Shown: positions 10,622 to 39,181 of the stretch, in pieces
Numbering within the stretch: position 1 is the first letter of the stretch
How the letters are laid out: each line of letters begins with the position of its first letter
DNA from: a virus
Strand: one strand, 5' to 3'
Length of the DNA stretch: 39,543 nucleotides
IMG/VR virus record: IMGVR_UViG_3300025582_000002
Location: 1 to 39,543 of that record
Made by a program: the position numbers and the translations under genes
The notes under the pieces: generated by a model
The model's database searches: none
What the model was told of the DNA's origin: nothing
What the model saw: the letters and a program-made list of their open reading frames with translations, nothing else

Positions 10622-11350
10622 TTATCCCTCCATCTCAGCCCTTAAATCCTCTTTGATATAATAGTTCCATCCGTTTTCTTTGCAGATCCGTTCTGCTTCA
10701 AGGCCGAACTTACGCCAGTCTATATCAGTTTTGTAATGATTAAGTTTTCCAATCTTAAGCAAAGTGTCCTTACTGACCATTACTGGCAGATTGTAAATAA
10801 GCTCTAATACTCCTATAGGTTCAATGACTGGCTCAAAACTAACCCATGTATTTATTCCTTTTCTTGAAGCATCAATTAGTGAATTAAGCCTTTCTAACGG
10901 CTCAGCTGCGTTTGGTTCTGCCCTATTTGATCCGTATAGACAGGATAACGTGATCCCAAAACTATCCCCATCGTCTAACAAGTCAAAGTCTCTTCTTGCC
11001 AGATCCCCGCCTTTGGTCAATATTTGGACGTGAGCGCCTGCTTCTTTGATGGCCTGAATAACTTCGCGTGTCGCAGTTGTATCAATCGTGTGCGGATATG
11101 GGTCGCACATAAAGCAGAGCATAATCTTCTTGTCTCTGTACTTCCCCTTTGATAATTGGAGCTTAGTTGCTTCAACAATTCCTTCGCGCGGCTTAACATC
11201 TTCGCCGAATGTTTCGTTAGGATGCCAGCGCTGAAAATTCTTCTTTGCGTAACAATACCAGCAATTATGATTACAGGAATTATAGATATTTAAGGCAAAA
11301 TCCGCATATTCCCCAGCCCTGCCTTTTGGGGTATAAATTGGTCTATGCAT
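10622..11350 (-). CDS. Radical SAM protein, SplB-like
   Basis: A 242-residue radical SAM enzyme. The 4Fe-4S cluster would be held by C26, C30 and C33 in CNHNCWYCYA. It is followed by the usual beta strands of the partial TIM barrel: IMLCFMCDPYP, VQILTKGG, FGITLSC, INTWVSFEPV. Pattern and spacing resemble the spore photoproduct lyase-like group (COG1533), which includes many phage proteins of unknown target. No second cluster domain is seen. Ribosome site GAGGAGG is strong. It lies directly after the DnaD-like gene, in the same early operon as a PP-loop enzyme and a TGT-like protein. Confidence 0.88.
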   Translation of the reverse strand: MHRPIYTPKGRAGEYADFALNIYNSCNHNCWYCYAKKNFQRWHPNETFGEDVKPREGIVEATKLQLSKGKYRDKKIMLCFMCDPYPHTIDTTATREVIQAIKEAGAHVQILTKGGDLARRDFDLLDDGDSFGITLSCLYGSNRAEPNAAEPLERLNSLIDASRKGINTWVSFEPVIEPIGVLELIYNLPVMVSKDTLLKIGKLNHYKTDIDWRKFGLEAERICKENGWNYYIKEDLRAEMEG

Positions 11351-13166: not shown

Positions 13167-13955
13167 TTACAATTCAGAATAATGTATTGCCCCGGTCAAC
13201 CGTTTTGTGCTGCGACAGTAATCGCATACCTCACACCTAACCGGCTCCTTAATTCCCGCCTTAACTGCTAGAATCCTTGGCATATTGACTTCAACCTGGG
13301 CCAGTTCAACCTCTAGCCTGGTGTGATCCGTCATGTTAATGATTGCCTTGTCTGGCTGCTTTTCCTTCGAGACGGCAACGATGAGAAACTCTGAGTAGTC
13401 ACCTGGTTCTCGGCCTTCTGATATGCGTTCACCCTCGCTATAAATAGCCATTTGAAGCGGGTAAGAATACGCCTCGACAAAGGAAACTTTCTTTCTAGTT
13501 TCCTCGTCCCATACCTTCTCTGTAATGCTCCTGGTTGTTTTCAGATCGACTATCCTTCTGCGCTCATTGTTCTGTACGTCTAACATGACTTTCCATGGTG
13601 CCCCGAACATTTCAAAAGTAATAATGACTTCCTTGTCTCCCTCAAGACAATACATGGCAAAATCATCATTTTGTAGGCAATCAATCATGTTGTCAGCCCC
13701 AATATATTCAGCTTTTAATGATCCATCTTTCTTAAACATTTGAGGGCAATTGGCTATAAACTCTCGTTGTGTTCCTTGGCTCCAAGAATGTACATAGCTC
13801 CCGACCATTAGGGCAATGCTAACTTCTTCTACCCATTCACCAGACAACTTCGCAATTTCTTTAGCTTCACACTCTAAAAATCCCTTATATTGACTCCTGC
13901 TCATGAATTCAAAATTGGCCTCATTTGAAAAATAGTTTTCGTGATTAAGAAGCAA
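13167..13955 (-). CDS. RecE-like exonuclease, PD-(D/E)XK (DUF3799 type)
   Basis: A 262-residue nuclease that would make 3' single strands for RecT. It opens with NFEFMSRSQYKGFLECEAKE, the signature of PF12684/YqaJ-like exonuclease VIII domains, has IALMVGSYVHSW, and the active centre VMLDVQNNERRRIVDLKTT with the D...D-x-K arrangement. A C-terminal CEVCDYC cysteine set closes the fold, as in AddB/Cas4-like nucleases. The start is a TTG behind GGAAGGAGAAAG. Together with recT and the SMC-like ATPase it makes a recombination module, now split by the 13945-14592 gene. Confidence 0.9.
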   Translation of the reverse strand: MLLNHENYFSNEANFEFMSRSQYKGFLECEAKEIAKLSGEWVEEVSIALMVGSYVHSWSQGTQREFIANCPQMFKKDGSLKAEYIGADNMIDCLQNDDFAMYCLEGDKEVIITFEMFGAPWKVMLDVQNNERRRIVDLKTTRSITEKVWDEETRKKVSFVEAYSYPLQMAIYSEGERISEGREPGDYSEFLIVAVSKEKQPDKAIINMTDHTRLEVELAQVEVNMPRILAVKAGIKEPVRCEVCDYCRSTKRLTGAIHYSEL

Positions 13956-14592
13956 CTTTCTTTCTCCTTCCTACCCCGCTCGGCCTAGATATTACTTCTT
14001 CAATAGGCCAGTGGGCCCTTAGTCTATAAACAACAGTTCCGTAATCTAAGTTGTATTTCCGTGATATTTCTACAGGGGTAAGGTATTCTCCGTTGACCAA
14101 ATAACGCTTTGTGCATCTTGTATTAAGGCGTTGTTCCCCCATTGTTGCCCATCTACAATTTTCCTTGCAATAATCTCCATTATTGTTATCACGCTCAATA
14201 GTGGTATCTTTTTCGTTGTAGAGATTTACATGTTTTATGTAGCTCTCATACATATCTCTTTTGAAAAGATTGAAGTCGTGCCATTCTTCAGATAATAGAA
14301 TTCCGCGTCCTCCATAACCTGAATATCCGGTTGCATATGGGCTTTCAATTCTCCTGATAATATTTTTCCAAATATTATAAAATCTTGTTTCGCTCATTCC
14401 GTGCTTACTGACAACTTCTTTTCTGTAACAACCGCAACTCTTGCTTCTCCCGTTTATAAGTGTTGGGTAAAAAATAGATTTGACTGTCCCACAATCGCAT
14501 CGGCATAAAACGTAACCGTCTTTTAAGATAATAGAGGGGATAACTGTCCATCTTTCAAATTTTCTTCCGTTTAATTCCTCAGCTCTTCCCAT
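13945..14592 (-). CDS. Putative homing endonuclease (zinc ribbon + HNH-like + DNA-binding tail)
   Basis: A 215-residue protein. Residues 1-60 have the common W-T-V...CRCDCG...CGC zinc-ribbon pattern. From about 65 the sequence RFYNIWKNIIRRI, GYGGRGI, W.DF..FKRDM and TIERDNNNGDYCKENCRWAT is typical of phage HNH-like homing nucleases (ERD.N.G.Y..ENCRW). The last 55 residues (YLTPVEISRKYNLDYGTVVYRL) resemble a NUMOD-type DNA-binding helix. It sits between recT and its exonuclease, two genes that are usually adjacent, so it looks like a selfish insertion. Confidence 0.8.
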   Translation of the reverse strand: MGRAEELNGRKFERWTVIPSIILKDGYVLCRCDCGTVKSIFYPTLINGRSKSCGCYRKEVVSKHGMSETRFYNIWKNIIRRIESPYATGYSGYGGRGILLSEEWHDFNLFKRDMYESYIKHVNLYNEKDTTIERDNNNGDYCKENCRWATMGEQRLNTRCTKRYLVNGEYLTPVEISRKYNLDYGTVVYRLRAHWPIEEVISRPSGVGRRKKVAS

Positions 14593-15501
14593 CTATTTCC
14601 CCTCCTTACCCGCCACCTTAGCATCGGCATCCTCCATGGCGGCAATCTTCGCGTCTAGTTCCAGGCTTGCCTTCCGCTCTTGCTCTGCCTTGAATTCTGC
14701 ATCAATACTGTTCTCTGGTAACTCCTTCAATTCCTCACCAGCAATGTCCACGTAATCAGGGTATTCTTCCCCATCGTCATCCTTACGAATGACTGACTGA
14801 TCAAACTTCACCGCCTGCGCTATTTCCGTAGACATCGGTCCCCAGTGGTTCAGCATATCCTTCAAGACAGTCTTTCTCGCCATGGCATTAAAATCTGATT
14901 GCCAGGGGCCGTTGTTGAATGTCTTTGAGAATCTTTGGGCATGAGCAGTAACCCTTTCCTTTGGCCAATAACTAACCTTTTTGAATCCGTTCATGAGTTC
15001 GAATACTCCTGCGTAGCCAATAACGTCAAGCTTAGCTCTATACACTAAATCTTTATTAAGTTCGAGCTCCAACACTTCTGTAAATGGGTCCCAACTAATA
15101 AGTTCTCCCTTGTGGATATCAATTACATTCATCACTTTATATAGTCCGGTTCGCTGCCCTAATTGGACAAATGCGCGATATCCTAACATAAACTGAGCTT
15201 CAGTAACCTCTCCAGTAACTACGTTTTTGTCGTTCTTTACCTTCCTTTTGAAAGGAATCGCATAAGCAAATCCGAGATTATTATCCAACGGAAGATTAAG
15301 GCTAGCCGCCTTTAATCCGCAGTACATAAGGGTCTCTGGTACGCAATTCTTCAATGAAGGGGTAATATTAGCCATGGACACTAGCGAGGTTACAAATTGT
15401 GGAGCACGCTCCTTCAGGACACCCTCGATGTACTTCTTGACGTTCACCGATCCTAGGAATTGGGCTACCGTTGGTTTTTTCACAGCGATTTCATTACTCA
15501 T
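14593..15501 (-). CDS. recT: RecT single-strand annealing protein
   Basis: A 302-residue RecT family recombinase. Visible signatures are VAQFLGSVNVKKYIEGVL, FVTSLVSMANITPSLKNC, LMYCGLKAASLNLPLDNNLG, then FMLGYRAFVQLGQRTGLYK and the conserved WPKERVTAHAQRFSKTF, ending with MARKTVLKDMLNHWGPMS. The C-terminus is a charged tail. It anneals complementary strands during phage recombination and replication. RBS AAGAGGGGGAG. Confidence 0.96.
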   Translation of the reverse strand: MSNEIAVKKPTVAQFLGSVNVKKYIEGVLKERAPQFVTSLVSMANITPSLKNCVPETLMYCGLKAASLNLPLDNNLGFAYAIPFKRKVKNDKNVVTGEVTEAQFMLGYRAFVQLGQRTGLYKVMNVIDIHKGELISWDPFTEVLELELNKDLVYRAKLDVIGYAGVFELMNGFKKVSYWPKERVTAHAQRFSKTFNNGPWQSDFNAMARKTVLKDMLNHWGPMSTEIAQAVKFDQSVIRKDDDGEEYPDYVDIAGEELKELPENSIDAEFKAEQERKASLELDAKIAAMEDADAKVAGKEGK

Positions 15502-21670: not shown

Positions 21671-22348
21671 ATGGATATTAAGGCAGATAAAGAAAAGCGC
21701 GATAAGTTGTTAATAAAACAACTAGATCTATCGTCTAAGAGATTAAGAAGTTTTAGGGAGTCTTCTGGCTTTCAACAAAAAGAATTCGCACAATTATTTG
21801 ACATCGAACCAAGCATTTATAATCGATATGAAACCGGGAAAATAAAATCCATACCACAAAACATTCTTATGGAGATCTGTAATAAGTTTGACCTAAACTT
21901 AAAATGGTTAGCGGGAGTTGAGGATGCAGAAAAACACGTGGTAGTTCAAGACGCATCTCCAGGAACAAAGCGCATTACAATTCTCGGAACAATTGCCGCC
22001 GGGTTGCCCATCTATGCGCAGGAGGATGTTTTGGGTTTTGAATACGTTGATTCTAATTTACATGTAGATTTTTGCCTCCGTGTTCAAGGTGACAGTATGA
22101 TCGGAGCTCGGATACTAGATGGTGACCTAGTGTACATACGTCAGCAGTCGGATGTTGAGACGGGAGAAATAGCCGCCGTCTTGGTTGATAATGACTCAGC
22201 TACATTGAAACGAATTTATAAAGTTAACGGGACAGTTGTTCTAAGGTCCGAAAACCCAAACTTTCCCGATCAAATATATACCAAAAAGGATATGAAAGAT
22301 GTTCGTATCTTGGGAAAGGCCATATTATTTAAAACGGAGGTGCGGTAA
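21671..22348 (+). CDS. CI-like repressor with S24 self-cleavage domain
   Basis: A 225-residue lysogeny repressor. The N-terminal HTH is QQKEFAQLFDIEPSIYNRY; the C-terminal part from about 105 is a LexA-type S24 peptidase: cleavage site A110-G111 (IAAGLPIY), serine S142 in VQGDSMIG and lysine K180 in SATLKRIY. RecA-stimulated self-cleavage after DNA damage would induce the phage. The gene is divergent from the Cro-like gene and ends exactly where the integrase ATG begins, so both are made from one transcript in the lysogen. Confidence 0.95.
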   Translation: MDIKADKEKRDKLLIKQLDLSSKRLRSFRESSGFQQKEFAQLFDIEPSIYNRYETGKIKSIPQNILMEICNKFDLNLKWLAGVEDAEKHVVVQDASPGTKRITILGTIAAGLPIYAQEDVLGFEYVDSNLHVDFCLRVQGDSMIGARILDGDLVYIRQQSDVETGEIAAVLVDNDSATLKRIYKVNGTVVLRSENPNFPDQIYTKKDMKDVRILGKAILFKTEVR

Positions 22349-23440
22349 ATGGCAAGTATAACTAAGCGTCCAAGTGGGTCATATCAAGCGGCCATCTTTG
22401 TTGGTCGCGACGATGAAGGGAGACAAATCAGGAGAATGGTAACAAAGCCCACGTTGAAAGAATGTAAGATCGCGATTAAGGAGATTGAACGAGAGATTGA
22501 AGATCAGAATTATTCAAACGTGCGGAACATCGGGGTTATTGCGTGGATTGATGAATGGATTAAGTTGAATAAGACAAGGCTCTCACCCTCAACTCATGCA
22601 ACTTATAAGATCTATTCAAGGGTACATTACGCACCATATTTTAAAAAAATGAAGCTAAAAGAATTAACCGAGATTCATATTCGCAAATTCATGGCGCAAC
22701 AACTTGGTTTCCTTTCTCCAACTACTGTTCGAAAGCATGTTTCCGTTTTGAATAAAATATTCGAAGAAGCGTTGAAGGACAAGAACCCGGTTAGGTATGT
22801 AAAACTACCATCTAAGGCGAAGTACACGCCTTATGTCTTATCCGAAGCGGAAATGGAAAAGATACACGATACCATAAGGGGAACAAGGGACGAAATTATA
22901 GTGTTGCTAGCCGCCTGGTGCGGCCTACGAAGGGGTGAAATATTTGCATTAAAACCCGATGATGTGGATTGGGAAAATAAAACTATCCGTGTCGATGAAA
23001 ACACAGCAATCAACGACGAATACATGTATGTTGATAAAGGCCCAAAATCAGACAATGGATATAGGGAAGTGGTTGCCCCAAAGTACCTAATGGGGCTATT
23101 GGAGAGCATGAGAAAAAACTGGAAAGAGATACCGGAGCGTTTCTTTACATTACGTCCAGATTACTATTCCAGCTATTTCGCCGAGTTAATTAGAAATAAG
23201 GAATTACCGCCCATCAGATTCCACGACCTCAGACACTATCATGCATCATGGCTCTTTGCGAACAAGATACCCGACCAATACGCCGCAAGACATCTAGGAG
23301 ACGATATACAGACGCTTAAGGCCACGTATCAACACATTGGCGCGGACTACCGCCAAGATATAGATGATACAGTCCGTGGTCTACGTGATGAACCACACAA
23401 AAAGGCTAGAGTCTGGAAATTAAAAAGGACTATGCAATAA
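22349..23440 (+). CDS. int: Tyrosine-recombinase integrase
   Basis: A 363-residue phage integrase. Residues 1-55 are an arm-binding domain (SITKRPSGSYQAAIFVGRD), 60-150 the core-binding SAM-like domain, and 165-350 the catalytic domain with R194 (CGLRRGE), K233, H292-x-x-R295 (FHDLRHYHAS), H315 (RHLGDD) and the nucleophile Y327 (TYQHIG). All catalytic residues are present. The attP site with the tRNA-Leu 3' half and arm-type repeats lies 90 bp downstream. No separate excisionase was identified; one of the small early genes could be it. Confidence 0.96.
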   Translation: MASITKRPSGSYQAAIFVGRDDEGRQIRRMVTKPTLKECKIAIKEIEREIEDQNYSNVRNIGVIAWIDEWIKLNKTRLSPSTHATYKIYSRVHYAPYFKKMKLKELTEIHIRKFMAQQLGFLSPTTVRKHVSVLNKIFEEALKDKNPVRYVKLPSKAKYTPYVLSEAEMEKIHDTIRGTRDEIIVLLAAWCGLRRGEIFALKPDDVDWENKTIRVDENTAINDEYMYVDKGPKSDNGYREVVAPKYLMGLLESMRKNWKEIPERFFTLRPDYYSSYFAELIRNKELPPIRFHDLRHYHASWLFANKIPDQYAARHLGDDIQTLKATYQHIGADYRQDIDDTVRGLRDEPHKKARVWKLKRTMQ

Positions 23441-27009: not shown

Positions 27010-28857
27010 TTAGCTTTGCGTATGGTTATGCACATCTGTACTCGTTCCGTAAGTCCCCGTGTCAGTAGTCACGGTGTGTGTGTGATAATGTGTACTAACG
27101 TTTGCTCCCTTTTGAGCTGCCCAAGCTTGCGTGGCGATTTGAGACGCACCTATATAGATGGCTAAGCCAGGATCTATTTCTATTTGACCACCGCCTGGGA
27201 CAGAAATACTTAAAACTGTACTCCCATCGCCAGTTAAGCCCTGAAAATACTTTATCGTTGCTGGACCCACATAACCCGCTACAACACCCCCGAATTGCAT
27301 GCCATAATCAGTTCCAGCATTCCAAATATTTGATGATACTTTTAAGATGTCCTTAGCTTCTACGGTTGTTCCCGTGACCGAACTTCCAGAAATTGTAGAA
27401 CCCACGATTGCTCCACTGGCGATCATATCAACCAAATTTACTTTTCCATCTACGTCGACATAAAACACATCAATGCCGTTGTTGGTTATCTTGAGCCCGA
27501 CCGTGGGATCAACGAGGACTTCGACTAACCCCTTAACGATGTCGATATAGGAGTCTTTTAAATGAATGTTTCCGTCCACATCCACGTAGAACACATCAAT
27601 GCCGTTGTTGGTTATCTTGAGCCCGACCGTGGGATCAACGAGGACTTCGACTAACCCCTTAACGATGTCGATATAGGAGTCTTTTAAATGAATGTTTCCG
27701 TCCACATCCACGTAGAACACATCAATGCCGTTGTTGGTTATCTTGAGCCCGACCGTGGGATCAACGAGGACTTCGACTAACCCCTTAACGATGTCGATAT
27801 AGGAGTCTTTTAAATGAATGTTTCCGTCCACATCCACGTAGAACCTATTTTCCCACGCTCCCAATCCGTCACCGCTTTGGACTGATATCCCCTCTGTGGC
27901 ATTCAAGACCGACTTAACCTTATTGTCGCTCCTAGTTGCCACAAATCCTTCATCTGGCCCAATCTTTACCCCGTTATACAGCGCATCCTTGGATACCGTT
28001 GTTTGCTGCAAGTCGGTCACGGTGTCGTTTATATCTTTAATAAATGCCCCGGCTAGATTGGATATAGTTACTTTACCCTGCATCCGTTGAACTGGATTAT
28101 GCGATTCTTTTATGATTCGCACTGGCAAATTAACGATGCCTAATTGATCGTCAAACAAATAAACAGTGTCGCCTAACCCGTAGTGATCGTCTACCCCATG
28201 TCCCTGAGCGTATTCCAGCTCAACGACATCCGTGTCATAGGTCACCGTCGGGAGTCCTGCTACTTTGTTACGGTTGTCAGTTATTCGCGACATGCTAACT
28301 AGATTACGCCGATACCTAAACCCTAGCCCGTTATCTGCGCCCCTACGCGTTAGGAGGGATATTACATACTTATCAAACTTCAATTCCCCGCCTAATTGCT
28401 CGGCCAACTTAAGCAGTATCCCACGCTTGCTAACTTTTTCGTTGATTGCCAAAGTCGTTAACGCCGTGAAATCTACTTGCCCAACAGTAAAACCTGTCCC
28501 TGCAAGTAGGGTAGTCAATAGTACTGCCGGTGTCCCTACATCCGCGTAATAATCCACTATCATCGTATCTGCAGGATCGTTTTCGTCGCCTAAAAGGTCA
28601 TAGCTCACATGTTCGCATTCCACGTCGATTGTCAGGGTATCATCGGCGTTATGATTATCTTTTGTGTAAACAATGTTAAAGTAATTGTTTTCTATTTCAG
28701 CGATATTCTGATAAGTCACCTCATCACTTTTGTCTCCATCGACGATCGTTTGAAACGATGCCGTGAACTCTCTATTTATTTCTTCAGAGACTGAGGGAGA
28801 TACTACATTAATCAATAACGCCAAGGGCTCAAGAGATTGATTCAAGATTTTTATCAA
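27010..28857 (-). CDS. Tail-associated fibre (Tal / prophage endopeptidase tail-like) with perfect repeats
   Basis: The start is TTG (28855-28857) behind AAAGAGGTGAAAAAT; the frame upstream crosses a hairpin. The 615-residue protein has an N-terminal Tal-like baseplate domain (residues 1-290, with INREFTASFQ, YVISLLTRRGADN and LPVRIIKESHNP) as in the PF06605 family, and an elongated C-terminal fibre. Residues about 340-467 are three exact 42-residue repeats (FYVDVDGNIHLKDSYIDIVK...). The end is rich in His and Thr (THYHTHTVTTDTGTYG). It is placed after the tailspike, not directly after Dit, which is unusual. Confidence 0.88.
   Translation of the reverse strand: MIKILNQSLEPLALLINVVSPSVSEEINREFTASFQTIVDGDKSDEVTYQNIAEIENNYFNIVYTKDNHNADDTLTIDVECEHVSYDLLGDENDPADTMIVDYYADVGTPAVLLTTLLAGTGFTVGQVDFTALTTLAINEKVSKRGILLKLAEQLGGELKFDKYVISLLTRRGADNGLGFRYRRNLVSMSRITDNRNKVAGLPTVTYDTDVVELEYAQGHGVDDHYGLGDTVYLFDDQLGIVNLPVRIIKESHNPVQRMQGKVTISNLAGAFIKDINDTVTDLQQTTVSKDALYNGVKIGPDEGFVATRSDNKVKSVLNATEGISVQSGDGLGAWENRFYVDVDGNIHLKDSYIDIVKGLVEVLVDPTVGLKITNNGIDVFYVDVDGNIHLKDSYIDIVKGLVEVLVDPTVGLKITNNGIDVFYVDVDGNIHLKDSYIDIVKGLVEVLVDPTVGLKITNNGIDVFYVDVDGKVNLVDMIASGAIVGSTISGSSVTGTTVEAKDILKVSSNIWNAGTDYGMQFGGVVAGYVGPATIKYFQGLTGDGSTVLSISVPGGGQIEIDPGLAIYIGASQIATQAWAAQKGANVSTHYHTHTVTTDTGTYGTSTDVHNHTQS
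27464..27841. repeat. Three exact 126-bp tandem repeats in the tail fibre gene
   Basis: Units at 27464-27589, 27590-27715 and 27716-27841 are identical base for base, coding three copies of a 42-residue unit; a diverged partial fourth copy (FYVDVDGKVNL) follows in the protein. Exact identity points to very recent amplification or to gene conversion. Copy number could vary between virions and change fibre length. Confidence 0.95.
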
Positions 28858-28956: not shown

Positions 28957-30099
28957 CTAATATGAATCATCATGGACGGTTACAATTCTGTATTTGTAAA
29001 TATCCTCTTTGTTGAATATTGTTACATATTTATAATCAGTTATACTTGTCACATAATAATTTCCTTGGTCGATAAATGAACTTATGTCTTTTATGAATAG
29101 CATTCCAATCAGCATAATAATAAATGCAAAGCTTGCTATTTTAGTAGTTCTAAACCTTATTCCTTTAATTAGATTTGGTATAAGAATTACTTCTATTATT
29201 GTGAAGTATTCCAATATTCTGGACAAAATTTCAAGGTTAGCGACTGATATAAATAAAACGCTTCCTAAGAAGTACGTATATATTTGCAATTTATCAAACT
29301 CGCTAATATTCCCTTTCTCATTACTTTTATATAATATATATATAAATATGACACTTACGATCCTTAAAGCTATAGCCATTGGGTTAAAACTTGTTATCAC
29401 ATAGGAATTAACCATCCCAAACACACGGCCTAAGGGAACGACTAAATTACCTAATTTCGATAAACATAAAAATACTGAAGACAAAAGTAAAATTATATTC
29501 AGTATTTTATTAGAAAACATTCTTTTATAAGTATATTTAATAATAGGCATTACCACCATTATCAATGCTGAGGAATGAAATAATGATGCTAATGCTATCA
29601 TTATTAAATATTTGATGGTTTTACCATTTTGAAAATATCTGTAAAAAGCTATGAAGAAAATGGCCATAGCGATGCCTTGCCTGAGTGCACTATTAACATA
29701 TATGCTGTAGTATGCTGCGTAGAAAATAAGTAGTGATAGTAAATTGAACTTAGAGTTTTCTTTAATTACTTTTAGATATATGAACATAATTACAAAAGAA
29801 ATAACCATAATGAAAATTGTAAAATTCACGTCAAAACTTTTAAAGAGTCCTACCAATACCCTATATCCTATGTCCATGTGAGATTGATTCTGGATAGACT
29901 CCAGTATAGTATTTGGGCTTAAGTTATAATCCATCATATACCCAAAATAGTCTGTGCCTGATCCAAATCTAAACATACTTAGCAAGGTTAATACGATGCC
30001 AAATATAAGGAACCAAAATGTAGCAACTTTATTACTGAAAAATTGCAAGAAAGTTGCTACCGATATAATTAAAAATAACGTCATATATAACACTACCAT
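28957..30099 (-). CDS. EpsG/Wzy-like polysaccharide polymerase (moron)
   Basis: The start MVVLYMTLFLIISV follows GGAGAGGGGTCCGG; the frame is open 17 codons more. The 380-residue protein has about ten membrane helices and the EpsG-family pattern (MFRFGSGTDYFGYM near residue 45, GYRVLVGLFK, NSALRQGIAMAIFFIAFYR, LASLFHSSALIMV). EpsG and Wzy proteins join repeat units of exopolysaccharide or O-antigen at the outer face of the membrane. The gene is visibly richer in A+T than its neighbours and has its own promoter and terminators within a late tail operon: a classic moron. It could change the host surface polymer in lysogens. Confidence 0.87.
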   Translation of the reverse strand: MVVLYMTLFLIISVATFLQFFSNKVATFWFLIFGIVLTLLSMFRFGSGTDYFGYMMDYNLSPNTILESIQNQSHMDIGYRVLVGLFKSFDVNFTIFIMVISFVIMFIYLKVIKENSKFNLLSLLIFYAAYYSIYVNSALRQGIAMAIFFIAFYRYFQNGKTIKYLIMIALASLFHSSALIMVVMPIIKYTYKRMFSNKILNIILLLSSVFLCLSKLGNLVVPLGRVFGMVNSYVITSFNPMAIALRIVSVIFIYILYKSNEKGNISEFDKLQIYTYFLGSVLFISVANLEILSRILEYFTIIEVILIPNLIKGIRFRTTKIASFAFIIMLIGMLFIKDISSFIDQGNYYVTSITDYKYVTIFNKEDIYKYRIVTVHDDSY

Positions 30100-30130
30100 C
30101 CGGACCCCTCTCCGATATATTACGGGAATA

Positions 30131-30136
30131 ATTATA
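30131..30136 (-). promoter_or_regulatory. Extended -10 promoter for the EpsG-like gene
   Basis: On the minus strand TATGATATAAT: a perfect TATAAT with the extended TG dinucleotide one base upstream; the -35 is weak (CTGAAG-like, about 30154-30159). It lies about 30 bp before the chosen start and behind a terminator, so the gene can be read independently of the late operon. Confidence 0.65.
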
Positions 30137-30213
30137 TCATAAGTTTTCATCTCCTTCAGTCTTATTTCTTACTCAATCACTACAAACAATTTTATTGAAA
30201 GAAATTAAAAGAC

Positions 30214-33426: not shown

Positions 33427-33915
33427 CTATAACGAAATGGTATAATCGTCCCCTGAATCAAGCCATATATCCAAGTCAAGCGGCACATCATCATCCAGAT
33501 ACACGTCCTCTGCCGACGTCACGACATACAGCGCAAACGGTTGACACTCAAATTGTACAGTGGCTTTACCAATCCTGCGCAAAGATTCAAGCCCTACCGG
33601 ATCGTAAATTTTAGCGAGGTAATATTTATCAGGCTCGTCGTCGAAAGTAAGAGGAAGATATGCCGAACTCGTTAGCCATGCGGCGGCATCACGGAATTCA
33701 AGACGCATATCCTCAATAGATGCGCCAAGATATTGAAGCAGTACAGATATTGCGCGGGTATCAAAGGTATTGCCACCAAAATCATACACACCGTGTTTAC
33801 CAGGAATAACCAACTCTCGTTTACGCAATGCAGGCAGGACGGGGCGGCTTAATGATTGTAATATTAGCTTAAAGTCCGTATAGTTGTGTTTGCCCTTATA
33901 AGTTAAGCCGTTCAC
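33427..33915 (-). CDS. Distal tail protein (Dit), N-terminal domain only
   Basis: A 162-residue protein matching the N-terminal half of siphophage distal tail proteins (YKGKHNYTDFKLILQS, LPALRKRELVIPGKHGVYDFG, DMRLEFRDAAAWL, FECQPFALY). Normal Dit proteins are about 230-300 residues, with a C-terminal sandwich that is absent here. The GTG start overlaps the tape measure stop. See the gene at 32239 for the likely missing half. Confidence 0.85.
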   Translation of the reverse strand: MNGLTYKGKHNYTDFKLILQSLSRPVLPALRKRELVIPGKHGVYDFGGNTFDTRAISVLLQYLGASIEDMRLEFRDAAAWLTSSAYLPLTFDDEPDKYYLAKIYDPVGLESLRRIGKATVQFECQPFALYVVTSAEDVYLDDDVPLDLDIWLDSGDDYTISL

Positions 33916-36719
33916 GCCGTCACCGCCTTCCCTCTAGTCCTTCCCCGTTGGATGTTAAATAGTTGTTGAGAGATTACTTTCCCATCCATGTGGAGATTGA
34001 TTTGAATGGGTTGTGAAGATTCGGCGGGTTGAGTTTGGGTTTGCATGCTGGTGATAACGCTTCTTGCGACTTCCTGAGCGGTTTTCAGTACCATGTCTTG
34101 ACTTATGCCTGTCGCGTTGGGCAGAGCATTGTATCTTACCCCCATTGTCATATCTGCCGAAAGTCCCTGAATAGCATTTGTGACTTTAAACTTATTGGCA
34201 TCGATTCCTTTGGCAAGGTTATCCATAAAATCAGGCATCCACATGTCATCGTGTGCCATTGGACCATCCGTCGGGGTAGAGTGTCCTAGTAAGCCTCTGA
34301 TCTTTTCGGCTATCCTTCTTACCGACTCTAAAAGGGCTTTGGCTTTTGACGTAATGCCATCCACAAAACCTTGTATAAAATCTTTGCCCCACGTAAGGGC
34401 TTCACCTGGGAGTTTTTTTATCCAAGTCACAGCTTTTGTTATGCCGGTAACAATTGTATCTTTGATGCTGGACACCTTACCGGAGATAGCATTTTTCATG
34501 CTCTCGAAGGTTTGCACAGCAGAGGTCTTAATCTCAGTCCATTTAGTACTAAGCCAGGTAGACACGCTCGTAAATATTTCAATTGTTTTTGCCTTGACCT
34601 TGTCCCAATTCGCAGCGATTAATACTGCAATTCCAGCAACGGCGATAGCAACCCACGCGATAGGCCCCATGGCAATGACCCACGCTGCCGCCATTTTAGC
34701 CGCTTGTATTGTGCTTTGAACGCCCATCCAAACCCATTTAGCCACCACTACTGCCGACTGAGCTATCATGACAAGCCCTGCTGCTATGGCACCTGCACTG
34801 GTTACGACCCATGAGGCTACTACCTTTAGGGCATGTATTCCACTCTGTACACCCATCCATAACCACTTAGCTACTACTATGGCGGCTTGTGCAACATGCA
34901 CTATGACACTTGCTACCGCTCCGGATGCTGTAGCTACCCATGATCCGACAACTACTAAGGCATGAAATGTACTCTTTATACCCATCAAAAGCCAATCAGC
35001 TATAACCTTTGCCGATGCTATCCCGTTAATAATCGCTGTTTTCGTAGCTGAGATTGCTGTAACTAACCACGCGTTTACGATAACCGCTGCAACTGCGGCC
35101 GCAATCGGAGTTACGATAGCTTTGTATTTCACGAACCAGTCGATAATCCCACCTATTGCCGTTGCTGCTTCCTTGATAGCGGTACCGATTGAAGAAAATG
35201 CAAACTTAATCTCATTTTGGATGGCCGGCATATTAGTTTTTATATTTGTTGCAAACTCGTTCATTTTCGGGAGAACTTGCTCGCCAAGTGGAAGAACTAT
35301 GCCTGTTAACAGCTGGCGTTTAATCCCTTCTACACTCTCGCCGAAAGTGTTATATTTTACTTCGTTAATCTTTTTTAGAGAGTCTGTCGTAGAGTCTACA
35401 GCACCTTTTGTATTCGTGGATGCAAGAACACCTTTGGCACCGGAATCTTCCCATTGTGTTCCATACAATTCTACGCCTATGCGGTTTCGTTCTGTTTCAT
35501 CTTTAGTCTCTGCAAGTTTCTTATTGACTAATTCAAAGGCCGCCTTGCCCTCTGCTCCCCCTTTATTAAACGCCTTGCCAATTTTATCAACATCTAAACC
35601 TAATGACTTAAATGCATCCTGTGTGGTCTTAGATCCGTCTTTTGTTCTGATAGAAAATTCTTTGAATGAATCGGCAACTTTGTCTGTGTTTTGCACTCCT
35701 GCTTTGGCTCCGTTGCTGAACATATTGAACATTTCCTCAGCGCTAAAACCAGCCTCTTTATAAAGTCCGGAATATTCATTAATGGAATCAAGCATGTCGC
35801 CGTTTTTATTTAGTCCGTTTTGTGCTCCCTGAGCTAATAGGTTATAGGCTTGCTCGGAAGTCATGCCGAACTTAGTCATTAACATATCCGTGGATACTAC
35901 CGATTCCTGTACGTCCATCTGGAAGGTATCTCTTAATAATAGGGCATTTTCCGTTGCCTTCTTTAATGCATCCCCGGTTAATCCAGTTGCCTGAGAAACT
36001 GTGGTTAGTGCTGCCCCAATATCCTCAAAGTCTTCGCCAAAATTATCGTTATAGATTGCAAGCATGGTCTGACGCATTTCACCCATGCCAACGTCTGACG
36101 TTCCAGTGGCCGATTGTAACCCATTCAAGGACTTAGTTAGATCATCGGCCATCTTAACCCCTGCAACGGTAGCCCCAACAAATGCCGCGCCGATTGCTAG
36201 GATTCCGGCTACAAGAGCTTTACCCATCCCCTTAACCGTTTCTCCAAATTCCCCCATATCCCTAGCGTTTTCATTAATGGTTTGGTTATTGTCTTCTAAC
36301 GCTCTATTCATGTTATTTAATCCAGTAGTAGCGCCATTGAGTTGAGTTTGTAATCCCATTACAGCGGTATTCTGCCTGTCGTATGCCCTTTGAGCTTGTG
36401 CAACTTCTGCCGAATCGGCTGCAAACGCCGCCTTTGTCGCGTCAAGACTCGTTCTTAGCGTGGTAAGTTTGGTGTTTTGGTTGTCGTATTGAGTAGTTAA
36501 GAGTGCGATTTTGCTTTTCTGTGTATCCATTTGCTTGCCGAGGACTTCATTTTGAGCGGTGAGGGCTTGAGTTGATTTATCGTTACGGTCGAACTGGCTC
36601 AGGGATACTTTCATTTCTGAGGTGAGTAGCTTAAATTCATTGTTGATTCCTGCCATTGCCGCTTTAAATTCTTTTTCACCTGTAACTTGTAGCCGTGGCC
36701 CTATCGAAGTTTCAGCCAT
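33912..36719 (-). CDS. Tape measure protein
   Basis: A 935-residue tail-length protein. The N-terminal 150 residues are coiled coil; residues about 200-450 match the PhageMin_Tail/TP901 domain (TTVSQATGLTGDALKKATE, LLAQGAQNGLNKNGDML, GVELYGTQWEDSG). A hydrophobic region (about 560-720) has three related 43-residue repeats (VVAKWLWMGVQSGIHALKVV...SWVVTSAG). The C-terminal part carries LPGEALTWGKDFIQGFVDGI and GHSTPTDGPMAHDDMWMPDF, usual in this family. It fixes tail length and would help DNA entry. RBS GGAAAGGAGGAAG. Confidence 0.96.
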   Translation of the reverse strand: MAETSIGPRLQVTGEKEFKAAMAGINNEFKLLTSEMKVSLSQFDRNDKSTQALTAQNEVLGKQMDTQKSKIALLTTQYDNQNTKLTTLRTSLDATKAAFAADSAEVAQAQRAYDRQNTAVMGLQTQLNGATTGLNNMNRALEDNNQTINENARDMGEFGETVKGMGKALVAGILAIGAAFVGATVAGVKMADDLTKSLNGLQSATGTSDVGMGEMRQTMLAIYNDNFGEDFEDIGAALTTVSQATGLTGDALKKATENALLLRDTFQMDVQESVVSTDMLMTKFGMTSEQAYNLLAQGAQNGLNKNGDMLDSINEYSGLYKEAGFSAEEMFNMFSNGAKAGVQNTDKVADSFKEFSIRTKDGSKTTQDAFKSLGLDVDKIGKAFNKGGAEGKAAFELVNKKLAETKDETERNRIGVELYGTQWEDSGAKGVLASTNTKGAVDSTTDSLKKINEVKYNTFGESVEGIKRQLLTGIVLPLGEQVLPKMNEFATNIKTNMPAIQNEIKFAFSSIGTAIKEAATAIGGIIDWFVKYKAIVTPIAAAVAAVIVNAWLVTAISATKTAIINGIASAKVIADWLLMGIKSTFHALVVVGSWVATASGAVASVIVHVAQAAIVVAKWLWMGVQSGIHALKVVASWVVTSAGAIAAGLVMIAQSAVVVAKWVWMGVQSTIQAAKMAAAWVIAMGPIAWVAIAVAGIAVLIAANWDKVKAKTIEIFTSVSTWLSTKWTEIKTSAVQTFESMKNAISGKVSSIKDTIVTGITKAVTWIKKLPGEALTWGKDFIQGFVDGITSKAKALLESVRRIAEKIRGLLGHSTPTDGPMAHDDMWMPDFMDNLAKGIDANKFKVTNAIQGLSADMTMGVRYNALPNATGISQDMVLKTAQEVARSVITSMQTQTQPAESSQPIQINLHMDGKVISQQLFNIQRGRTRGKAVTA

Positions 36720-36736: not shown

Positions 36737-36949
36737 CTAAAGACCCGCATCATCGAGCGCATTTGATTGTTCTACGAGCCCCTTGTTAGCGTCATAAATT
36801 AAAAGGTCCAGATAATAATATATGTCCATTTCATCAACATCGTTGAGCGTCCATCCCTTATCTTTCGTTAGACCTATGTACATCTCTTTAATCCAGTCAG
36901 AGAGAGATATGCTAGGTCCTGAATTACTTGTTTTTGGGAAATTTCTCAA
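36737..36949 (-). CDS. Tail assembly chaperone T part, probably made by frameshift
   Basis: The frame (LRNFPKTSNSG..., ending NALDDAGL) opens at a TTG without a ribosome site and overlaps the end of the G gene by 26 bp. It contains SLSDWIKEMYIGLTKDKGWTLNDVDEMDIYYYLDLL, typical of the gpT-like part of tail assembly chaperones. It is in the +1 frame relative to G. Both frames code F-P at the overlap (TTT CCC against TTC CCA), so +1 slippage there, or -2 slippage at AAAAAC, would make a G-T fusion. Confidence 0.75.
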   Translation of the reverse strand: MRNFPKTSNSGPSISLSDWIKEMYIGLTKDKGWTLNDVDEMDIYYYLDLLIYDANKGLVEQSNALDDAGL

Positions 36950-37253
36950 TTCTTTTTGTCACACCACTTATTACGCCTTCCATAGTTTCTCTTAACGTCG
37001 GCAATAGTTGATCAGATTCAAGGCCATCATATAGCTGATCGCGTGTGAATTTGTCTCCATAAGCCTTACATGTAAAATCCGCTAATTTATGTAAAGACTC
37101 AGTTGTAAACTCTGTAGCAGTTATCTCATCTCTTACCTCAAAAGCAACTACTACAAGCCGTGACTTAATTTTTCCAGTCACAAAAGTTCTCATTTCAGTA
37201 ATTTCTTCACCGTCTACTATCTTGCCAGTTCCAAATTCAAGTTTCAATTCCAT
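36924..37253 (-). CDS. Tail assembly chaperone G
   Basis: A 109-residue protein located between major tail protein and tape measure, where all long-tailed phages carry the G/GT chaperone pair. Sequence MELKLEFGTGKIVDGEEI ... RFTRDQLYDGLESDQL-type resembles Bacillota phage tail chaperones. RBS GGGGAGG. It binds the tape measure during tail assembly. Ends at a site that allows frame slippage into the T frame. Confidence 0.85.
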   Translation of the reverse strand: MELKLEFGTGKIVDGEEITEMRTFVTGKIKSRLVVVAFEVRDEITATEFTTESLHKLADFTCKAYGDKFTRDQLYDGLESDQLLPTLRETMEGVISGVTKRIEKFPKNK

Positions 37254-37313: not shown

Positions 37314-38195
37314 TTAAACTGTGAAATTAACCACGTAATTAGTAGCAAGTGCAATCCCGGACGCACTCTTGATATTTGTGGTTGCAACCAAGATGTAGGC
37401 TCCCGCTGCCAAAGCGATAGTAGGATGCACTGTTACGATTGTGTTAAGAGCACTAATAGCCAACGTCGCGGCTACTGCAGTCCCATCAGCCATCATGACG
37501 AACACGTTAGCCGGGGTCATCGTTGACGGTTGAATTGCCTTGTCGAATGTTAATACCATATCGGATGCTGCCAAAACCCCAACTGCTGCGTCAATCGGGA
37601 CGCTTGTTACGGTTGGTGCGACTGCATCAAAAGGTCCAGCGCCTGGTACCGTGTCGAGGAAAGCTACGGTAGTGGGATTTGTGCCCGAATCCTGATCTCC
37701 GGCTTTCTGCCAATCTCCGTTTTTGTTAGCGATGGCAAGCCCTGATATCTTAGGGGTTTGGAATACTACTTTCCCTTCTGAAGTTTTTGTTTCTTCTGCC
37801 ATTTCCTGAAGCATTACCTTAAACAACCAAACGTATCTACTCTTTCCGTTACCCTTGGTTCGTTCGTAGCCTAATGCCACGTATGGGGCTTTGTCGTCAA
37901 CGTTTTTGGTTATTATTCCCGTTACCGGATCAAATGCGTTCCCCAAAAAATCAGCTTGAACTTGATGTGGCAGATCCTGTGTTTCAAAGTCTACTGGGAT
38001 ATCCCCTATACTTGTACCCGTTTGCACTACTCGATTGCTTGCGTATAGATTAGCTACGTCCACCTTAGGGGCGACCTTGATATTTAGAACTGGCGGGGCT
38101 TCCTTTATCGCTCCATAAGTTTCCAGTAGCTCATCTGTCATGATTGCATAAACAAGTTTGTTGATTCCTGTGGTTGCACTGTTTACTATTGGCAT
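37314..38195 (-). CDS. Major tail protein with C-terminal Ig-like (Big_5-type) domain
   Basis: A 293-residue tail tube protein. The first 190 residues have the common Bacillota tail-tube plan (VNSATTGINKLVYAIMTDE, ETQDLPHQVQADFLGNAFDP, YVWLFKVMLQEMAEETKTSEG, GLAIANKNGDW). Residues about 193-293 form a separate beta domain (APTVTSVPIDAAVGVLAASD...VLTFDKAIQPSTM...VVNFTV) of the bacterial Ig-like Big_5 type, which would stand out from the tail surface. RBS TAGGAGG. It is the second virion shell protein here with such an extra domain. Confidence 0.92.
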   Translation of the reverse strand: MPIVNSATTGINKLVYAIMTDELLETYGAIKEAPPVLNIKVAPKVDVANLYASNRVVQTGTSIGDIPVDFETQDLPHQVQADFLGNAFDPVTGIITKNVDDKAPYVALGYERTKGNGKSRYVWLFKVMLQEMAEETKTSEGKVVFQTPKISGLAIANKNGDWQKAGDQDSGTNPTTVAFLDTVPGAGPFDAVAPTVTSVPIDAAVGVLAASDMVLTFDKAIQPSTMTPANVFVMMADGTAVAATLAISALNTIVTVHPTIALAAGAYILVATTNIKSASGIALATNYVVNFTV

Positions 38196-38214
38196 AATTT
38201 AACCTCCTATAAAT

Positions 38215-38418
38215 TTAATTTCTTGCTATTCCTGCATTTGCCCAAAACATCGCCTCTTCAAGTTTGGTCATTGCTATTGATTTTTCCCTAGAGTCAAGGC
38301 AAACACCGTCAATTAGATATGCCAACTCTTTGCACTTATCCCTAATTTCGTTGTATCTTCCCGGTCTGTCGGCATCAGGTTTGTGATATCTAAAATTGTT
38401 TTCAATCTGTTTGTCCAC
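38215..38418 (-). CDS. Acb2/Tad1-type cyclic-nucleotide sponge (anti-CBASS/anti-Thoeris)
   Basis: A 67-residue protein starting at GTG behind TAGGAGGTAG. The whole sequence follows the Acb2/Tad1 hairpin family: F9-x-Y11-H12-x-P14, R21-Y22-x-x-I25-R26, a helix KCKELAYLIDGVC, then S43-R-E-K-S-I-A-M-T-K-L-E-E-A and WANAGIARN at the end. Known Acb2 and Tad1 proteins form oligomers that bind and hide cyclic nucleotides or gcADPR made by CBASS and Thoeris immune systems; I recall that Tyr11 and a basic residue at 26 bind ligand in the Pseudomonas Acb2. It lies between the gp10-like and tail-tube genes. Family call is firm, ligand unknown. Confidence 0.82.
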   Translation of the reverse strand: MDKQIENNFRYHKPDADRPGRYNEIRDKCKELAYLIDGVCLDSREKSIAMTKLEEAMFWANAGIARN

Positions 38419-38429
38419 ATTTCTACCTC

Positions 38430-38849
38430 CTATAAATTTAATTTCCTGATCTCTTCGTTGATAACTTCGCCCATTCGAGCAACGGCTTGTTTCTTCGTTG
38501 CGTTCACTGCTGGTCGGACAAATGGTGTTTTTTGTTGCTTGGAAGATCCGCTCTCGAGGACGCGGGCCTTTAGTTGGTTGGCCACTCCGTCCGAACCGTA
38601 GCCATCAAAGCCGATCTTCGCATTCCAATTGCCGGACGCGTCTTTTTCGATTGGAGTAACACCAAAACTAGCCACCAATTCGCCGGACGCTTCTGGCGAT
38701 AGTACCCCGTCGAGATTGCTTTTGATTTTGTCGGCTATTACTTTAGCCCCTTCATAAATTGCCTTTTTGGCTATCTCATCTGATTGAGTTGCAAGATGCG
38801 AGAGGGCAAGGGCGAACTCATCACCTGCCATAAACGAGCACCTGGCCAT
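38430..38849 (-). CDS. HK97 gp10-like head-tail protein
   Basis: The start MARCSFMAGDEFALAL follows GGTGGAGGTGTAAGG; 12 open codons upstream overlap the previous gene. The 139-residue protein has KKAIYEGAKVIADKIKSNL and GELVASFGVTPI, then KTPFVRPAVNATKKQAV, the signatures of the HK97 gp10 family of tail-completion/head-joining proteins. Position between tail terminator and tail tube genes fits. Confidence 0.9.
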   Translation of the reverse strand: MARCSFMAGDEFALALSHLATQSDEIAKKAIYEGAKVIADKIKSNLDGVLSPEASGELVASFGVTPIEKDASGNWNAKIGFDGYGSDGVANQLKARVLESGSSKQQKTPFVRPAVNATKKQAVARMGEVINEEIRKLNL

Positions 38850-38854
38850 AATCC

Positions 38855-39181
38855 TTACACCTCCACCGGGATGCTGAAAATCCACTGATAATGAATATAC
38901 TTGGTATCCTCCTCGTACTGGATTGAGTCTAAATAAAAACTGATCCCAGCATTATTGAGGGCTGTTTGAATTTGGCTAAATTTTGGGTCGTATTCTGTTT
39001 TTGTGAATAGGTCGATGGTTCCTTGAATAGCTTGCTCTTGCATTTGCCCGCCAGCATATACAGCATCGGATTGGGTGTCCTCTGACCAGACTAAATAGGG
39101 TGTAATTAGGCCGGTCCCATCATAGTGGCGCAGATTTGTTGTTACAGTCAGGAGGGCATTTTTAACATCAGCTAACGTCAT
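38855..39181 (-). CDS. Tail completion / terminator protein
   Basis: A 108-residue protein (MTLADVKNALLTVTTNLRHY..., LVWSEDTQSDAVYAGGQM, then QGTIDLFTKTEYDPKFSQI). The E-x-x-QGT-I-D-L pattern is typical of tail completion proteins in Bacillota siphophages, which cap the tail tube and join it to the head. It overlaps both neighbours (27 bp with gp10-like start region, 14 bp with head closure). Confidence 0.85.
   Translation of the reverse strand: MTLADVKNALLTVTTNLRHYDGTGLITPYLVWSEDTQSDAVYAGGQMQEQAIQGTIDLFTKTEYDPKFSQIQTALNNAGISFYLDSIQYEEDTKYIHYQWIFSIPVEV

Follow-up and report, generated by a model that had tools for sequence, protein, structure and literature searches.

The window, that is, the entire 39,543-nt stretch of viral DNA analyzed here, carries on its minus strand a short acb2-like gene, which encodes the predicted protein MDKQIENNFRYHKPDADRPGRYNEIRDKCKELAYLIDGVCLDSREKSIAMTKLEEAMFWANAGIARN and is flanked by the genes for an HK97-gp10-like protein and the major tail (tube) protein (Table 1). 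The start codon is preceded, at a distance of 7 nt, by a good Shine-Dalgarno sequence (GGAGG), and only 11 nt separate the gene from the gp10-like gene and 19 nt from the tube gene, all three on the same strand. The location between these two tail genes, already given in a preliminary description of this DNA, is borne out by the profile matches on both sides.

The genes for the terminase, portal, protease and capsid proteins occupy 1–6 kb of the window, an endolysin gene is found at 26 kb, and tail genes extend from 27 kb to the end. The phage is a siphovirus and, given the CI-like repressor and integrase genes, a temperate one. Several other features of this genome deserve mention. Amid the tail genes, in a part of the window with low GC content (37.7–39.1%), there is a gene for an EpsG-family polysaccharide polymerase (28957–30150, minus strand; PF14897, 1.9e-45), a candidate lysogenic-conversion gene that would alter the host surface. 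A tail endopeptidase-like gene contains a 126-bp tandem repeat (27443–27844; 3.2 copies at 97%), the copy number of which might vary, and the phage early region encodes a Radical SAM/DUF5131 protein (10622–11350, minus strand). In the comparison of the tube protein with its counterparts at loci L024–L045, some relatives have the C-terminal Big_5 domain, whereas others with an otherwise similar protein lack it.

Table 1 Coordinates of the acb2-like gene, its flanking repeats and other genes of the window
Feature	Position	Strand	Matches and remarks
acb2-like gene	38215..38418	-	67-aa ORF, GTG start
HK97-gp10-like neck/tail completion (Neck1, connector) gene, upstream neighbour	38430..38885	-	PF04883, phrog_5, TIGR01725
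Major tail (tube) protein gene with C-terminal Ig-like Big_5, downstream neighbour	37314..38195	-	phrog_88, TIGR01603; PF13205
Tail terminator gene	38855..39181	-	phrog_78 5.6e-13; same operon as the acb2-like gene
Small gene downstream of the tube gene, at the position of a tail assembly chaperone	36924..37253	-	phrog_187 5e-13 (labelled head-tail adaptor); precedes the tape measure gene
Tape measure gene	33912..36719	-	PF10145 1.1e-26; same operon as the acb2-like gene
21-bp direct repeat GAAATTAAATTTATAGGAGGT, upstream copy	38425..38445	-	gp10 end, stop codon, acb2 ribosome-binding site
21-bp direct repeat, downstream copy	38202..38222	-	acb2 end and tube gene ribosome-binding site
Exonuclease and RecT annealing genes	13167..15501	-	phrog_1227 3.3e-82, phrog_148 1.9e-58
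CI-like repressor and tyrosine integrase genes	21671..23440	+	phrog_4, phrog_1

Family membership of the 67-aa protein

The 67-aa protein matches the Pfam profile of the Acb2/Tad1 hairpin, PF24729, with E=5.2e-25 and a score of 87.9 bits (cut-off, 27) over positions 2–58 of the 58 in the profile, and PHROG_1454 with E=1.5e-27; all 18 aligned relatives independently match PF24729. The preliminary description had placed the protein in the Acb2/Tad1 family and listed its motifs; the profile search upholds the assignment, and the motifs recur letter for letter (F-R-Y-H-K-P, R-Y-N-E-I-R, S-R-E-K-S, T-K-L-E-E-A and W-A-N-A-G-I-A-R-N). No matching model was found when the PADLOC and NCBIfam collections were searched with the same protein. 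A hit to PF20940 (SSV1_D-63), at 17.3 bits below the cut-off of 27, was dropped. The pN/pS ratio between the window gene and a partial homologue from another phage (L003) is 0.17; the protein is therefore under constraint, which indicates purifying selection. The gene is ordinary in kind, the Acb2 family having been known since 2023.

Homologues that belong to PHROG_1454, or 'cyclic nucleotide sequestering protein', are found in more than 300 phage records, among actinobacteriophages and Paenibacillus larvae phages. Most are full-length, with about 37–63% identity to the window protein among the matches listed, and, in the genomes inspected, they occupy other genome locations than the window gene. 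In cluster E mycobacteriophages, such homologues are annotated as a CBASS antagonist (PMC11953737). Many homologues from P. larvae and Brevibacillus phages are labelled 'phosphomannomutase' in GenBank (for example, L108, 2989–3195), which is probably a spreading annotation error.

Predicted architecture and putative binding positions

In the AlphaFold2 model of the 67-aa protein (mean pLDDT 86), a short N-terminal helix (residues 2–8) is followed by two long antiparallel helices (19–39 and 44–66), without any strand. The Acb2 protomer has this very layout, whereas Tad1 contains an additional N-terminal antiparallel beta-sheet domain ahead of the two helices, and the gcADPR pockets of Tad1 include conserved loops of that N-terminal part (PMC12043709). 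The length and the predicted secondary structure thus fit the Acb2 type, not Tad1, and, the beta domain being absent, gcADPR binding is not implied. Accordingly, the earlier suggestion of an Acb2/Tad1 sponge stands in its Acb2-like part, but its Tad1/gcADPR part does not follow. The protein does share with Tad1 (PDB 7uav and others) the S-R-E-x-x-x-A-x-T-x-x-E-E-A-x-x-W pattern of the C-terminal helix, the first part of which, S-R-E-x-x-x-A-x-T, is common to Tad1 chains, and the PF24729 family takes in Tad1 as well. However, the alignment covers only 20–23 residues in the region of the last Tad1 helix, and a protein of 67 aa that lacks both the beta domain and the N-terminal loops of the gcADPR pockets (PMC12043709) is very unlikely to be a Tad1-like sponge with gcADPR from Thoeris as its main target.

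The comparison of the model with the Acb2 structure 8h2x yields Z 5.2 and rmsd 3.0 over 56 residues, but unrelated helical hairpins score equally high, so the fold alone proves nothing and the assignment is carried by the sequence profile. A Foldseek search of the PDB with the model produced no significant match, as expected for a hairpin of 67 residues, and this is no evidence of a new fold. By sequence, the closest solved relative is 'Acb2 homolog 43' (PDB 9ptq; profile match with E=1.5e-8), a protein of 76 aa with which the GREKS-TKLEEAMF stretch is held in common.

The Acb2 proteins of Pseudomonas phages (PaMx33/PaP2) and Vs.4 of T4 have a similar protomer layout, and their binding positions can be aligned with the window protein, but PaP2 and T4 Acb2 are longer (88–93 aa), because the inter-helix loop is about 24 residues shorter in the window protein. 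The Acb2 of PaP2 is gp26, with Y11 and K26 as cyclic-dinucleotide contact positions and R67 as the trinucleotide-binding arginine. In the very weak alignment of the window subgroup with T4 and PaP2 Acb2 (HMM scores of 6.0 and -0.1 bits), T4 Y8/PaP2 Y11 corresponds to H12, T4 K23/PaP2 K26 to R26, PaP2 R67 to R44, T4 T68 to T51, and the stacking residue T4 F82 to I64, that is, tyrosine is replaced by histidine, lysine by arginine, and the F82 position is non-aromatic. Among the 18 aligned sequences, R26 is invariant and H12 is conserved in at least 90%. In T4 Acb2, F82 forms a stacking contact with the ligand, and the binding of cyclic dinucleotides is disrupted by Y8A (PMC12657218); T68M lowers binding (PMC12657230).

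The putative nucleotide pocket thus appears to be modified, not lost. From the family membership and the conserved positions, we infer that the 67-aa protein binds nucleotides and functions as a sponge; its ligand range may differ from that of T4 and PaP2 Acb2 because two of the dinucleotide contacts are changed (Y to H12, and F82 to I64). The same changes, combined with the retention of R44 at the position of PaP2 R67, could be taken to suggest a sponge with a different target, either another cyclic nucleotide (for example, cA3 or one of the other cyclic oligoadenylates of type III CRISPR) or a hitherto undescribed ligand. Given that the residue mapping comes from a weak alignment, we consider such a specialization a minor, if real, possibility.

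An exchangeable cassette between two tail genes

Relatives of the window phage were retrieved via the tail tube protein, and the gp10-tube junction was readable in 24 contigs, a few of which are near-copies of each other, so that not all are independent. No gene is present at the junction in 21 of these contigs, acb2 in two and an unrelated insert in one. Of the two acb2 carriers, L002 and L025, the former hardly differs from the window, and the contig names trace both to a single metagenome.

The edges of the cassette in the window are marked by a perfect 21-bp direct repeat (two exact matches in the window, with none expected in shuffled sequences). As the repeat comprises the end of the gp10-like gene, the stop codon and a ribosome-binding site, neither neighbour is deprived of its signals. 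Exact direct repeats of at least 14 bp were absent at the junction of the empty-site relatives, and the edges of the L025 cassette match each other less exactly than those of the window. A 16-bp version of the repeat flanks the unrelated 239-nt insert in L038 (4499–4734), which contains a possible 45-aa CxxC ORF. At its 3' edge, this insert has the same sequence as the window acb2 has at its own, GCAAGAAATTAAATTTATAGGAGG, as if the tail of a former acb2 had stayed behind. Short-homology exchange of such cassettes could possibly be driven by the exonuclease and RecT encoded in the phage genome.

The divergence between the window and L025 is unevenly distributed. The proteins are 91% identical for gp10 and 85% for the tube, but only 57% for Acb2, and the contrast extends to synonymous sites, with dS of 2.5 in acb2 compared to 0.48 and 0.66 in the gp10 and tube genes, respectively (Fisher p=1.4e-4 for acb2 against the flanks). 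Protein-level selection is not expected to increase synonymous change; the probable cause is therefore replacement of one of the alleles or their separate acquisition. Conversely, the window acb2 is close to the partial homologue from L003 (81.6% identity in DNA and, over the 44 available residues, 80% in protein); L003 is a phage that differs in its portal, and the DNA similarity between it and the window does not extend beyond acb2. In a tree of 46 rows, the resolution of which is poor, the window pairs with L003 (94/67) and L025 is placed elsewhere. The topology with the window and L025 as sole sisters is weakly rejected (p-AU 0.043), this topology having been chosen after the tree was seen, and the contrast in synonymous divergence is the stronger evidence of exchange. 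The alternative, fast evolution of one and the same acb2 without any exchange, would agree with the beginning (MDKQIE) and the end (WANAGIARN) that the two alleles have in common and with a clade of the window, L003 and L025, which is not rejected (p-AU 0.24). Nevertheless, with acb2 far more divergent than either flank at synonymous sites and not just in amino acids, and with the window allele nearer to that of an unrelated phage than to that of L025, we find this explanation unlikely.

Because the site is empty in most of the relatives, the edges are formed by 21-bp repeats, and dS of acb2 is far above that of the flanks, acb2 is an exchangeable cassette at the gp10-tube junction; the presence and absence at one site among close relatives is that of a moron-like element. 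With the kind of protein already known, the new detail is this well-documented slot between tail genes.

Late placement and proposed role of the sponge

In a scan for promoters and terminators around acb2, sites of both kinds were about as frequent as in shuffled sequences, and none were found directly 5' of the gene on the minus strand. The cassette thus differs from a classical moron, which has a promoter and a terminator of its own. Because no above-chance promoter or terminator signal separates acb2 from the operon, late co-expression with the tail genes is likely.

The preliminary description had called a late location odd for an anti-defence gene. This finds mild support in PaP2 and T4, where acb2 is located in early or replication regions, unlike the tail operon location in the window, but for the most part the point does not hold, in view of the presence/absence cassette and of some ten homologue loci that adjoin portal, connector, tail-fibre or endolysin genes, in a convenience survey that was no census. 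These homologues are located next to the portal (L105, L014, L088 and L003), a head-tail adaptor (L090), a tail fibre (L004) or an endolysin gene (L006, L016 and L106), or between the terminase and the portal (L111). Several others are found next to ribonucleotide reductase, SSB, RecA-type or replication genes.

The location of acb2 between two structural genes in one transcription unit, together with homologues that likewise adjoin portal or tail genes, might suggest a small neck or tail assembly protein that merely resembles Acb2. However, the gene is missing in most of the relatives with intact neighbouring tail genes, family members are found also by ribonucleotide reductase, SSB and RecA-type genes, and the match to the sponge family is strong, all of which makes an assembly role extremely improbable.

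An Acb2-type sponge carried as an optional, horizontally exchanged cassette in a late tail operon is the interpretation that we favor and consider likely. Under this scenario, the small helical protein would assemble into hexamers, like the characterized Acb2, and the hexamer would hold cyclic di- and/or trinucleotides produced by the host CBASS or another cyclic-nucleotide system. With the signal held, the effector would stay off, and the cell would not be sacrificed before the phage finishes. The cassette, inserted between the gp10-like and tube genes, with the duplicated ribosome-binding site keeping both neighbours translated, is passed horizontally between phages. More tentatively, the gp10-tube junction might be a swap site for sponges with varied ligand ranges, where the short subgroup with H12 and R26 would have a preference of its own, perhaps for cyclic trinucleotides, unlike T4 and PaP2 Acb2, and would come into play late in infection, when the host signal is triggered by structural proteins.

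The record of the window is a virus contig that includes no host genome. No match was found in a profile scan of genome contigs with the tail-tube alignment; the scan with the Acb2 alignment detected one Oscillospiraceae MAG and three Nocardia, none of which is the host of the window phage. At the compared loci, in sampled genomes of the MAG's class, relatives of the tube protein show at most 47% identity, and a search within one order found none clearly closer by E-value; the suggestion of the preliminary description that the host group carries CBASS or Thoeris is thus a conjecture. As background only, given that the host may be outside this class, the 391 genomes sampled from the class to which the one homologue-carrying Bacillota MAG belongs include 4 with PF24729, 21 with a SMODS cyclase domain and 5 with a ThsA-type STALD domain, all above the cut-off.

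Here, phages have exchanged a known counter-defence gene in the form of a precise cassette that occupies a late tail operon, and the matched relatives with an empty site offer a natural experiment on whether phages gain protection from a late sponge. In public phage records, most members of the short subgroup with altered binding residues, to which this gene belongs, carry no annotation or a wrong one. In the Gordonia phage ChisanaKitsune (L105, 2989–5253), an acb2-like gene is located between the portal and RNA ligase genes and is followed by a gene annotated as a VIP2-like ADP-ribosyltransferase, perhaps comprising a cluster of host-interaction genes in the head operon.
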